Assembly: GCA_947463095.1 (NCBI GenBank)
Contig: CANHRE010000011.1
Coordinates: forward strand, 1-45,614
Reading direction: 5' to 3'
Origin: Flavobacteriales bacterium
GTDB lineage: Bacteria; Bacteroidota; Bacteroidia; NS11-12g; UBA955
DNA length: 45,614 nt
Part shown: piece by piece, positions 1,237-6,807 of the stretch
Numbering within the stretch: position 1 is the first letter of the stretch
How the letters are laid out: every line of letters starts with the position of its first letter
Made by a program: the position numbers and the translations under genes
Notes under the pieces: generated by a model
What the model saw: the letters and a program-made list of their open reading frames with translations, nothing else
What the model was told of the DNA's origin: nothing
The model's database searches: none

Positions 1237-2259
1237 TTACTTCTTTTTGACTTCGTATAAATCATGCATCATTTCAATTCGCCTTGCCATCATCTGACGC
1301 AAATCACGGGGCTCTAATACTTCCACATTTTCCCCATAACGCAGCACCAATGCCTCAAATTCCATATTAGGTTTGATGAAGATGCGGAACACCACGCCCG
1401 TTTTATCTTCAGAAATAACTTCCTGCGAATGATGAAGCGGCAGAGATTCAATGAATGGCCAGGTTTTCCGGCCGGCCTTCAGCACGACCTCTGTCAGCGG
1501 ACTATCCTGAAAATGGGTTACCCCAATGATGTTATTGTAGAAACTATGCGGATCTGGTTTATAGGCCTTGTTGATGCCAGTTCCACAAGGTTCCAGGCTG
1601 ATTACTCTGTCCAAAGCTAAATTCTCCAGGCGGTCGGTTGTTTCTACGTAAGCCACCAAATACCATCGCGTGCGGTACTTCTTCAGAAAATAGGGATGGA
1701 CCTTTCTCAGTTTATCCTTTTCCTCTCGATCCTGGAAGGATTGGTAATTGATTTCTAGAATCAGGTCAAACTGAATGGCGTTCAGAATCGGGGTTACCCA
1801 ATGCCCACCTTTGGCCTCCGGCTCATGATCAAAATACAGAGCGCCTTCCTTAGAAATACTCTGGTTCACACTACCTTCAATACGCATGAGCATCTCTTCT
1901 AAAAAGGCAAAATGCGGCAATTCCTTGAACTGGCTCAACACCTGAACCGATTGCTCAATATTCTTTATGTCCGCTTCACTCAACGACTTCATTATAGAGA
2001 AAGCTGGATCAGAATACCGGTATCGACTTGTGCCATACGCTACTTCGATTGGAGCGGCAAAGCCCGCTGGCGGATCGCGGCGCATTAACTGAATATCCGA
2101 ATTGATTGACCTCGGTGAAATAGATGTAATGCCATGGAATTCAAACAGTTTTTCCGATACTTTTTTTACTAATTCATTGATAGTCAGACCAGAAGGATAG
2201 TTCCGAAATAACTCATCTAAAACGCGGTAACGAAAAGCAGCCAGCTTATTTTGTGACAT
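1237..2259 (-). CDS. WYL-domain transcriptional regulator
   Basis: A 340-residue protein with an N-terminal helix-turn-helix region (about residues 5-85, with RYRVLDELFRN and SPRSINSDIQLMRRD typical of the YafY/DeoR-like winged helix). A central WYL domain follows (VHPYFLKKYRTRWYLVAY contains the W-Y-L signature), then a C-terminal WCX-like extension (VVLKAGRKTWPFIESLP onward). WYL proteins sense small ligands or nucleic acids and often control defence or accessory genes. The ATG at 2259 (MSQNKLAAFRYR) is preferred over a start nine codons upstream because family members begin just before the HTH. No defence gene is visible beside it, so its target is unknown. Confidence 0.85.
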   Translation of the reverse strand: MSQNKLAAFRYRVLDELFRNYPSGLTINELVKKVSEKLFEFHGITSISPRSINSDIQLMRRDPPAGFAAPIEVAYGTSRYRYSDPAFSIMKSLSEADIKNIEQSVQVLSQFKELPHFAFLEEMLMRIEGSVNQSISKEGALYFDHEPEAKGGHWVTPILNAIQFDLILEINYQSFQDREEKDKLRKVHPYFLKKYRTRWYLVAYVETTDRLENLALDRVISLEPCGTGINKAYKPDPHSFYNNIIGVTHFQDSPLTEVVLKAGRKTWPFIESLPLHHSQEVISEDKTGVVFRIFIKPNMEFEALVLRYGENVEVLEPRDLRQMMARRIEMMHDLYEVKKK

Positions 2260-2342
2260 AGTGTAAATTATGCAAATAGACTGCACAATTGTATAGTTCT
2301 TTTGTGAAAACTAAAAACAGCAATGTCTATTAAATATCCTTG

Positions 2343-2588: not shown

Positions 2589-4238
2589 TTATTTCTGTTT
2601 GTTGTTCCAAATTTTTCTGACGTAAAGCTCACTGAATCCGGTAACCTCGGATATTTCAGATGCTGTCTTATTTTGCTTCCTGAATTGCATCACTTTTTCC
2701 ATCCTTAGCCTGTTTATCAATGCCCCCGGTTTTTCAGGTGCCAGCACTGTATAGACATAGGCATTACTGGTGTTAAACTTTTCAGTAATAGATTTCAGGC
2801 TTGCTTTAGCAAGGTTCTCGGCAATAAATCGTTCAATATCTTCCCGAGTAGTGACCGGGGCGGCAGAAAATCCGGTATCAGCTTCGATGTCTTTGAGTTT
2901 ACGTCGAGAGCGAAAGAGCATTTTTGTAAGTAAACCTATGAAAATAAACGACGCAATGAGAAGACCAAACAGAAGCTTATATCCACCGGAATTATTGCCA
3001 CTTACATTCGTTACCCTTTCAGACAATTCATCGAGATATCTGGCATCCAAAATGTATAATCCATTTATGCTGCCGGCAAAGAGACTGTCACCCTGAAGAT
3101 AGAGACCATGTCGATTGAATTCAATTCCATTGATAAGTGGTGAAAGTTTGTTTGAAGCCGCATTGTACCGGAAAAGCCCTGCATTTGTGGCGATTGCGAA
3201 TTCTGAGCCGCCTAAATGTTGCAGTGTGTGTGCCTGATTCAATGTTGCCAACTTTTTAGACGTACCATCCCTGTTTACCACATAGAATCCCTGACTGCAG
3301 AGTAGATAAATACTAAGCGAGTTAACAAAGCCGTCCATGATATTTTCACGCAGAGAGAACTGAATTTCGCTTCGATTGGATACAGGATTGTAAAAAAAAA
3401 GATGTTTGCCTGAAGAGAAATAAATATTTCCCCGGTTTTCTCCCAAAAGAACTACCTCCGTATCCTTGTCTTTTACTTTATAGACCGATTCGGCTGTTGT
3501 AAGTTTCTCATTCATACGGGCCAAATCTGTCTTTGCAGCGAGAAAAAATTGCTTGTACTGATTGGAATAGAGAATGTCACTTGTCCAGTTGAAATCAAAA
3601 CCCTTGGGCAGTTGCAGTCTGCATGTAGGTAAACTATCACCATGATGCAGGTCAGCAATAAGCAGCGAACTGTAGCAAATGAAGACTTTGCCATTGATTT
3701 CACGAATGCGACCGTCAGTAAATCCCGGGAAACTATGCGTAGCATCTAACATGCGCCCGCGATAATAGATACCGGAATAAGTTCCGACAAAGTTACGTGA
3801 TGCCGCTCTGACGCTATGGCTTCTGTAAGCCACGTCGAAGGGCAAAATCTCCTAAATATGTATTTTACCTCCTGCGGCCAAGTAAAAAAAGTCATCCGTA
3901 CCCGCATGGTAAGTAACACTTTGTTCTTCCGGGAACGGAAGCAATTTGCTGTATTTTGTCTGCACGTGATACTTTATTCCCTGAGGGTTAACAGTTGGTA
4001 GTTCATTCTTGTCTAGAATCAGATATCCTGATCGGTTTTCGACCTTTGACATTGTCGTGCCATCGAAACAAAATATACCCTCGGAAGTACCTGCGTAAAT
4101 CTTGCCGTCACCGCCTTTCAATACATTGTAGAAAAAGGGCTTGGAACTCATAGAGTGAAGCACCGTATCCCTGAGTTGACACCAACCCTTTTCATAACAG
4201 AGCAGTGCGAGTATGACCAGGATTGCTTTTGCTGGCAT
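2589..4238 (-). pseudogene. Membrane-anchored propeller / AraC-type HTH regulator, interrupted by an in-frame TAG
   Basis: One reading frame of 549 codons is cut by a single TAG at 3852-3854, between KIHI and EILPFDVAYRS; both sides are in the same frame and keep the same domain structure. Part one (128 residues from ATG 4238) has a signal peptide (MPAKAILVILALLCYEKG) and propeller-like motifs (AGTSEGIFCFDG). Part two continues the propeller (GTYSGIYYRG, ATNAGLFRYN, AGSINGLYIL), then has one membrane helix (YKLLFGLLIASFIFIGLLTK), a basic linker and an AraC-type double helix-turn-helix at the C-terminus (SLKSITEKFNTS; TASEISEVTGFSELYVRKIW). There is no kinase or receiver domain. It is divergent from two secreted-protein genes and probably controlled them. 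Part two has no good start of its own, so it is called broken unless the TAG is a sequencing error or is read through. Confidence 0.75.
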
Positions 4239-4289
4239 GGCTGTGACAATGTTTAGGTGCGCAAAGAAATATCGCCCTATGAGACTTTT

Positions 4290-4312
4290 CAAAATTGTCG
4301 CGCAAAATTGTC
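4290..4312. promoter_or_regulatory. Tandem decamer, candidate operator in the divergent intergenic region
   Basis: CAAAATTGTC occurs twice without mismatch, at 4290-4299 and 4303-4312, separated by GCG (13-bp period). It lies between the start of the propeller/AraC regulator (4238, minus) and the first secreted-protein gene (4388, plus). AraC-type proteins often bind direct repeats, so this is a candidate binding site for the neighbouring regulator. That link is inference. Confidence 0.45.
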
Positions 4313-4387
4313 TCTATAGTTTTTAAAATAAATCCACGGGCAAAAAACTACAACAGAAAAAGCGGGCAATAAACTTGCATCGAATTG

Positions 4388-5410
4388 ATGAAAAAGATGT
4401 TGACATTAGCACTAAGCAGACGCTTCAGGGTTATCAGGGCACTCATGCTGTTTTCTGTTGTATTCGGTTCGATTAAGCCCTGTGCTTCCCAGCTGTATAT
4501 AGGTCCGGATGTCAATTCGCTGGTGATAAAATCTGGTGACAGTTTCAGTTATGACGGTCTCACACTCATACCCGCTACGAATTTCACACTTAACGATAAT
4601 ACAGTCACCCGCACGGATGCTAGGAGTATTAGTCCCACTCCAACAGGCAACTACGTTGCGCGGTATTTTAGCTTCAGCAAAACCACGGCGGTCTTTTCAG
4701 GAACAATTAGGTTTTCATATGCCGGAGCTACCTTGTCACCTTTGACCGCAGGGTTGCTTGAACTGAATATCAGAACGGACAGTACAACGTGGACTAATAA
4801 AAGCGGAACGGATAACGGCAGTAGTTATGTGGAAGCCACGGTGAGTGGCGCACATACGCTCAATACACTAACCCTGGCTTCTATCGGAGTGCCTTTGCCT
4901 GTTACATGGCTGTATTTTTCAGCTTCCCTGAGAAACAATGCTGTGGATCTGAACTGGGCAACCGCCGCTGAGTTTAATACACAGCACTTTCTGGTGCAAC
5001 ACAGCAGCTCCGGAGTAAAGTGGCAGACATTGGAACTGGTAGAGGCCGCCGGTAATTCTGCCACGCCGCGGTATTACTCCTGTGCCCATACCAATCCATC
5101 CTTCGGCAATAATTACTACCGGCTCATACAACAAGATTTAGACGGCAAACAAGATTATAGCGACATAGTGAGAGCATGGGTCGGAGAAAATGGCAGGTCA
5201 ATTCGCGTTTATCCGAATCCGGTGTCGCATGGGGAGTTAACAGTGTGCCTTATTGAAGATGCTGTATGCCGGATATTCGATGCCACCGGCAGGAACGTGC
5301 TTTCGCTGCCATTTCGTGCGGGCATCCATAAATTAGATGTATCCGGCTTGCAACGTGGTTTATACCACCTGCACTGCAGCGCTGAAGTGTTCCCGATCAT
5401 CATTCCATAA
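4388..5410 (+). CDS. Secreted protein with type IX secretion C-terminal domain
   Basis: A 340-residue protein with an N-terminal signal peptide (a basic stretch, then ALMLFSVVFGSIKPCAS). The first half is a beta-rich region without a recognisable family. From about residue 165 it has the widespread LPVTWLYFSASL...VDLNWATAAEFNTQHF module, which in Bacteroidota precedes the sorting domain, and it ends with a type A CTD (IRVYPNPVSHGELTV, then IFDATGRNV and a final short strand). Such CTDs direct export by the type IX system and attachment to the cell surface. ATG 4388 is chosen; a TTG precedes it directly. TAAACTTG at 4370-4377 is a weak promoter-box match. The gene is followed after 17 bp by the next secreted protein, so the two are probably cotranscribed. 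Confidence 0.85.
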   Translation: MKKMLTLALSRRFRVIRALMLFSVVFGSIKPCASQLYIGPDVNSLVIKSGDSFSYDGLTLIPATNFTLNDNTVTRTDARSISPTPTGNYVARYFSFSKTTAVFSGTIRFSYAGATLSPLTAGLLELNIRTDSTTWTNKSGTDNGSSYVEATVSGAHTLNTLTLASIGVPLPVTWLYFSASLRNNAVDLNWATAAEFNTQHFLVQHSSSGVKWQTLELVEAAGNSATPRYYSCAHTNPSFGNNYYRLIQQDLDGKQDYSDIVRAWVGENGRSIRVYPNPVSHGELTVCLIEDAVCRIFDATGRNVLSLPFRAGIHKLDVSGLQRGLYHLHCSAEVFPIIIP

Positions 5411-5427
5411 ACTTTAAACATAAAATC

Positions 5428-6807
5428 ATGAAAATACATATTCCATCAATCCTCTTTTTCTCCATTATGCTATCATGGTCCGGTATCGCCCGTGCCCAGG
5501 TAGGTATTGGCACTAGCACTCCCAGTGCATCTGCGCAACTGGAAGTTAGCAGCAGCAGCAAAGGATTTCTTCCACCCCGTGTCACCTTGACCGGACTCGG
5601 GGATGTAACAACCATTTCCAGTCCTGCTGTGGGCTTAATGGTATACAATACCGCTACAGCGGGAACTGCTCCGTCTAATGTTACTCCGGGTGTGTATTAT
5701 TACAACGGTACTAAATGGCAGCGGGTCATCAATCAGCAGCCGGATGCCACGGTAGAGTTTAATACAGCAGATCCGAACACAGGCAGCCCTATATTTAATC
5801 CCAATACACCGGCAAGCAAGGAGTATATTTATGTGAGTTCGGTGAACAATTCACAATGGACTTATACCGGCTCAGCGTACGTTACCTTTACTCCTCCGGC
5901 CAGCACGGCCTGGATGCTGTCGGGAGGCACGAATGATGCAGGCAGTAATAAAACTGCTTCCATTTACCGCACCGGCAAAGTGGGCATTGGTACATCCAAT
6001 CCTACCTATACATTGAGTGTAGGTACAGCAAATGGCTCCGTGCCGGGCTTAATCGAACTGAATCCTGCTGACGGGGCCAATGAAGGCGGTCAAATTGTCG
6101 TCAAGAAGTCAGTGAACTCAACAGCAAGTGCGAGCGACTGGACCATAGACCATTATGGAACCACTGCATCCAATGCCAGATTTAGAATTTTCAGTACCAC
6201 TGAAACAAAAGGCATAGTTATAGGCGATACCGGCAATGTGGGTATTGGATTGACTTCGCCCGCTACAAAACTCGAAGTAAGTTCAGGTGCTGCAAATAAA
6301 TCCGGAGTGCGATTTACCAACCTCACTTCCAGTACGCCTGTAACTTCAGGTGCTACTTTAGGTGTAGATGCAAGTGGCAATGTAGTTACTGTGACAGGTT
6401 CGTCATTTTCACCCTCATTTGGTTCGGTAGCACCCGCAAGCACCGTAACGGTTAATGCCGGGTCTAGTTCATTGTTGGCATCTATTTCATTTCCCACAAC
6501 CGGAACCTTTCTGATTAACTATACCATGCGGGTGCAAAGTACTGGTGCCACCGCCAACCAATATGCAGTTGGTTATCTGTCCAACACCAGCACTCCAGGC
6601 TCTCCAATCGCCGGCACCGAAATTCTGGGAGCTTTTTCAGGATCTGCTTTTGTTACGGGAGGTAATTACTCCGGCTCCCATATTGTAACAGTCAATTCTT
6701 TGCCCCAATCACTCCATTTCATAGGTGTAGCCGCCAATGGTCAGATGGCTTTTCTTGACGACGGAAACGGAAGAACAAGAATTTCTTATGTGAAAGTAAC
6801 TCCCTGA
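5428..6807 (+). CDS. Secreted GIGT-repeat, tail-fibre-like surface protein
   Basis: A 459-residue exported protein with a signal peptide (residues 1-23, ending ARAQ). Three copies of a GIGT-type motif are present: QVGIGTSTPSASAQLEV near the mature N-terminus, GKVGIGTSNPTYTLSV in the middle and GNVGIGLTSPATKLEV further on. The segment GLMVYNTATAG...GVYYYNGTKWQRV is common in Bacteroidota surface proteins that resemble phage tail-fibre shafts. The C-terminal 140 residues look like a beta-sandwich head; no type IX sorting domain and no auto-cleaving chaperone domain is seen. It follows the type IX substrate by 17 bp and is likely in its operon. A role in adhesion is a guess from architecture. 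Confidence 0.75.
   Translation: MKIHIPSILFFSIMLSWSGIARAQVGIGTSTPSASAQLEVSSSSKGFLPPRVTLTGLGDVTTISSPAVGLMVYNTATAGTAPSNVTPGVYYYNGTKWQRVINQQPDATVEFNTADPNTGSPIFNPNTPASKEYIYVSSVNNSQWTYTGSAYVTFTPPASTAWMLSGGTNDAGSNKTASIYRTGKVGIGTSNPTYTLSVGTANGSVPGLIELNPADGANEGGQIVVKKSVNSTASASDWTIDHYGTTASNARFRIFSTTETKGIVIGDTGNVGIGLTSPATKLEVSSGAANKSGVRFTNLTSSTPVTSGATLGVDASGNVVTVTGSSFSPSFGSVAPASTVTVNAGSSSLLASISFPTTGTFLINYTMRVQSTGATANQYAVGYLSNTSTPGSPIAGTEILGAFSGSAFVTGGNYSGSHIVTVNSLPQSLHFIGVAANGQMAFLDDGNGRTRISYVKVTP

Follow-up and report, generated by a model that had tools for sequence, protein, structure and literature searches.

A regulator gene in a lake-type Bacteroidota genome lies on the minus strand, back to back with genes for exported surface proteins, and raises the question of how one membrane helix could hand a propeller's signal to an AraC-type end. 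The window in which the locus lies is the whole stretch of DNA analysed, 45,614 nucleotides in length. The membrane regulators so far described in the Bacteroidota belong for the most part to HTCS, SusR-like and ECF/anti-sigma systems that serve glycan use; if the reading proposed here is true, a kinase-free, AraC-ended class tied to type IX surface proteins would be added to them. That reading, which we hold to be probable, is of a local one-component regulator that acts in a SusR-like manner on the adjacent surface-protein operon, in a locus that keeps its sensor and promoter block but exchanges its cargo, and whose copy in the window is probably inactive.

The regulator gene (2589..4238, minus strand, ATG at 4238) encodes, in this order, a signal peptide, an all-beta ectodomain, one TM helix and an AraC-like end with two HTHs. 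An AlphaFold model built from an alignment of 11 regulator homologues (mean pLDDT 76.9) has the signal peptide followed by four-stranded blades from residue ~43 to 416, a long helix at 435–470 and then six short helices. The blades form a beta-propeller (model residues 43–416; 3045..4166, minus strand), whose best Foldseek matches are the periplasmic domains of the HTCS BT4663, BT3049 and BT4673. Comparison with BT4673 gave a VIA Z of 22.9, a value that many other propellers equal, and a profile match to the HTCS ectodomain 3ott was found as well (E 2.4e-6). The propeller fold is sure, while kinship with the Reg_prop-type propellers of HTCS is suggested by the Foldseek ranking together with the 3ott match. 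How many blades there are is less certain, the model being of low confidence at residues 106–128 and 222–231.

The single TM helix region (model helix 435–470; 2883..2990, minus strand), recognised from both sequence and model, leads into a short AraC-type DNA-binding domain (2592..2861, minus strand), which ends short of the last AraC helix. Modelled alone, the last 90 residues reach a pLDDT of 92.8, and VIA Z values for the DNA-binding part against AraC/XylS structures are mostly 8–10 (10.3 for YesN and 8.6 for MarA), whereas non-AraC chains do not exceed 5.5. The two HTH units are linked by a long helix in the model, which is the hallmark of AraC/XylS proteins. Pfam HTH_18 stays below its gathering score (14.7 bits in the window against 33.6), with a weak match in six of the 11 homologues.

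Neither a kinase nor a receiver could be placed in this chain. A Pfam scan of the 11 homologues (E up to 1) gave no HisKA, HATPase or REC match among the best 25 of 32 families listed, and alignment and model leave no room for a kinase or receiver between the TM helix and the DNA-binding domain, so the phosphorelay-free layout proposed in the initial annotation stands. That the ectodomain might be an ordinary fragment of an HTCS sensor had been allowed for as well, and this reading was rejected: about ten intact homologues, mostly of 545–566 aa, share the signal peptide, propeller, single TM helix and short AraC-type domain, are equally long, and have the DNA-binding domain as their C-terminal end, with no kinase. 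One weak match has an HTCS-like length (1315 aa). By topology, the ectodomain is periplasmic and not surface-exposed; the “surface-sensing” originally ascribed to the system is not supported, since an inner-membrane protein with one TM helix has its sensing part in the periplasm.

Several known systems share part of this plan. In both the regulator and the HTCS BT4663, BT3049 and BT4673, the output is AraC-type and the propeller ectodomains are related in fold, but the regulator, a protein of ~550 aa in all, is without histidine kinase, phosphoacceptor or receiver, and has one propeller where the HTCS ectodomain comprises ~740 residues. In membrane one-component regulators of the ToxR/CadC type, a winged-helix domain lies at the cytoplasmic N-terminus, and one TM helix passes the signal to the DNA-binding domain. 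Signalling through one TM helix would be shared with these, whereas the window regulator has a signal peptide, an N-terminal propeller and a C-terminal AraC domain. A literature search that covered few subscription papers found no propeller-TM-AraC one-component family, and no AraC regulator of T9SS cargo, described. A membrane regulator of the Bacteroidota without a phosphorelay is already known in SusR (BT3705 of Bacteroides thetaiotaomicron), which acts on operons close by, controls glycan-use loci and is described as having a DNA-binding domain that does not significantly resemble that of any known regulator (PMC3878776); its mechanism has been called undefined (PMC6874557). Compared by description, both proteins consist of a periplasmic sensor, a TM segment and a cytoplasmic DNA-binding end without a kinase, whereas the DNA-binding domain of the window regulator is AraC-type, and its neighbours encode surface proteins in place of SusR's glycan-use loci. 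By analogy, the proposed signalling from periplasm to DNA would resemble the described action of SusR in outline. The pattern is real and conserved, and is a variation on membrane one-component regulation rather than a new principle.

In the window itself, the regulator is interrupted. ORF calling divides it into two same-frame ORFs on the minus strand, 2589–3845 (418 aa) and 3852–4292 (146 aa), separated by an in-frame TAG at 3852–3854 that cuts the frame at codon 129, counted from the ATG at 4238, which the starts of homologues indicate to be the true one. Of the single-piece regulator first described, the succession of domains thus held and the unbroken frame did not. A whole-genome search found the gene in single copy, with this one internal TAG. 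Intact copies of 546–551 aa, with 60–62% identity, occur in G008, G019, G034 and G071 (another genus of the same family), and the four close homologues have Tyr (TAC) at the position of the stop. Recoding of TAG was considered and rejected, as TAG, although rare, is used as a stop and terminates one normal gene of the window.

It is a nearly balanced question, leaning slightly to the negative, whether the gene in the window is a pseudogene in decay, with the neighbouring surface operon by now either left without regulation or otherwise controlled, such that the layout would matter in relatives only. The stop in place of Tyr points that way, as does the promoter block, which is more diverged in the window (63 bits) than in any relative (70–78 bits). 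Against decay, no other lesion was found in the 549 codons, dN is alike before and after the TAG (0.28–0.35) with dS saturated in most comparisons or above 1.5, and the stop may also be a one-base error in the consensus of a draft genome. The similar dN of the two halves, the saturated dS and the lack of any other lesion mark the TAG as either a recent loss or an assembly or consensus error, and the substitution pattern indicates that selection kept acting on the gene until recent times, through nearly all of its divergence. With its frame cut at codon 129, the window copy is probably non-functional, be it a recent pseudogene or an assembly error. The pseudogene reading concerns this copy alone and is compatible with a local regulator in the family as a whole.

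Divergent to the regulator lies a gene for a T9SS type A exported protein of 341 aa (4388..5410, plus strand), for which orthologues were found. Its Por_Secre_tail sorting domain (5207..5383, plus strand) scores 29.7 bits against a cut-off of 27, and TIGR04183 scores 25 bits against 23. The gene that follows encodes a secreted, fibre-like protein of 459 aa with VGIGT repeats (5428..6807, plus strand) and weak tail-fibre similarity, and the divergent pair reported initially, of a type IX-exported and a GIGT-repeat protein, was thereby corroborated. A gene for a WYL/WCX-domain transcriptional regulator (1237–2286, minus strand) adjoins the module.

An exported surface or envelope gene is divergent to the regulator in every homologue with a visible upstream side, namely the window, G019, G071 (C20), L050, L051, L053, L054, G008, G034, G101, and G257 and G218, two remote relatives of the same size; in L045, L052 and L071 the upstream side falls at a contig end. 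The same three genes recur in the same order (regulator, T9SS, GIGT) in G019 and G071, and so the co-occurrence that the initial annotation called for does exist. Other cargo is found in other lineages. For example, the divergent gene encodes a T9SS protein of another type in G008 (1668 aa) and G034 (cut by the contig end), giant proteins N-terminally related to that of G008 in L051 and L053, a GIGT protein alone in L050 (labelled a Chitinophagaceae MAG), a repeat protein in L054, and an OmpA-PD40 protein in G101, where the gene for a discoidin-domain surface protein comes next. In the remote relatives it encodes a CHU_C-tailed (T9SS) adhesin (G257) or an outer-membrane barrel (G218). The G257 adhesin gene (L069:1089–4839) consists of two overlapping frames, with a frameshift or assembly error being possible. 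Conversely, G026, G039, G042, G050 and G053 have a T9SS-GIGT pair that is not accompanied by the regulator. A strict three-gene system was rejected as too narrow, given that the pair can do without the regulator and that the regulator accompanies other cargo as well; the repeated divergence to exported genes was confirmed, but the pairing with T9SS plus GIGT is not specific, and the cargo varies by lineage.

The divergent layout exceeds chance when set against a base rate from 400 kb of one related genome, G008, where a divergent T9SS-tailed partner was met in 3 of 94 trials (~3%). No exact probability is claimed, since kindred loci do not count as independent cases, the cargo classes within a clade being themselves related. 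We judge it quite improbable that the regulator has no regulatory tie to the surface genes, the two being carried side by side, independently, in a variable part of the genome. Such a view would accommodate the rarity and patchiness of the regulator (5 of 70 genomes of the family) and the pair that occurs without it, both of which, along with the interrupted window gene, also speak against a local regulator. It would further agree with the separate movement of parts, as the GIGT protein of the window (5428–6807) is 78% identical to its homologue in G071 (L044:1440–2813), the regulator 61% and the T9SS protein 51%, which suggests from sequence comparison that the GIGT gene was exchanged separately from the other two. 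It is opposed by the low base rate of a T9SS partner, by an orientation that is always divergent across changed cargo, and by a promoter block that is kept through cargo exchange. In both G008 and G034, what is left of a T9SS gene (YRLLQRDVDGKYNITKITS*) stands between block and new cargo: the cargo was swapped while the regulator and block were retained. It is a tentative and rather doubtful extension that an undescribed regulator family marks a cargo-swapping locus, in which a kinase-free sensor and its block are fixed, the surface proteins are lineage-specific, and the propeller possibly reads cargo export.

The block in question (4263..4338, no strand assigned), a candidate operator in the divergent promoter, was recognised by comparison of five genomes, where it lies directly upstream of the regulator start with a length of 73–76 bp (the 74-bp block hereafter). 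The window and G019 copies align with a score of 53, compared with 21 ± 4 for shuffles and a maximum of 41 in 300. A sequence model finds the block once per regulator genome in the five (63–78 bits), with the next best match at 17.4 bits; as the model was built from the window and its relatives, high scores for these follow from the design, and what is informative is that no second copies turned up. No strong match was found in the regulator-less relatives G026, G031 and G070. A regulon beyond the locus was rejected, as none of the five genomes has a second strong block, including at G019's second T9SS-GIGT pair. Within the block lies the half-site AAAAATTAGCACAT, and a half-site AAAAATTA(G/A)CACAT recurs in the distant L051 and L053 promoters with 12–13 of 14 positions matching, with some pairs better than all 60 shuffles and some not. 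The L051 promoter carries TGTGCTAAAAATTAGCACA, a perfect inverted repeat. The 74-bp block could be just the regulator's own promoter or leader.

For the local regulator favoured here, the following course of events is proposed. Anchored in the inner membrane, the protein would sense a periplasmic signal with its single beta-propeller, and the signal would cross one TM helix and alter DNA binding by the minimal AraC-type domain, probably via changed dimerisation or position. That domain would act on the short divergent promoter, presumably by binding at the 74-bp block, and would thus control the neighbouring operon of exported surface proteins, and perhaps the regulator gene as well; activation seems the likelier direction. 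With one candidate operator per genome beside one operon, signalling from propeller to AraC domain through a single TM helix is testable in a small system. As for the ligand, it is conceivable but unlikely that the propeller monitors export, such that periplasmic type IX cargo or an envelope component, rather than a nutrient or environmental ligand, is sensed and cargo expression adjusted. The partner's identity changes, yet in every case it is exported or belongs to the envelope, which would suit this role, and one homologue has a PorZ propeller match (E 0.0019). However, that match is weak and confined to one of 11 members, and the nearest folds, the HTCS propellers, are known to bind oligosaccharides (PMC3878776).

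A different membrane AraC regulator likewise stands beside T9SS-GIGT pairs in G019 and G026 (412 aa, 78% identical; L008:6504–7742 and L030:7908–9146). It differs from the propeller regulator in its hydrophobic multi-helix N-terminal part, without a propeller, and in lying in tandem upstream of the pair rather than divergent to it. The second T9SS-type copy of G019 (L008:7841–8830) has an in-frame TAA near its end, and premature stops occur in this gene family too. Finally, the GIGT protein at L008:8860–10014 ends in a Peptidase_S74 intramolecular chaperone and has strong similarity to phage tail fibres.
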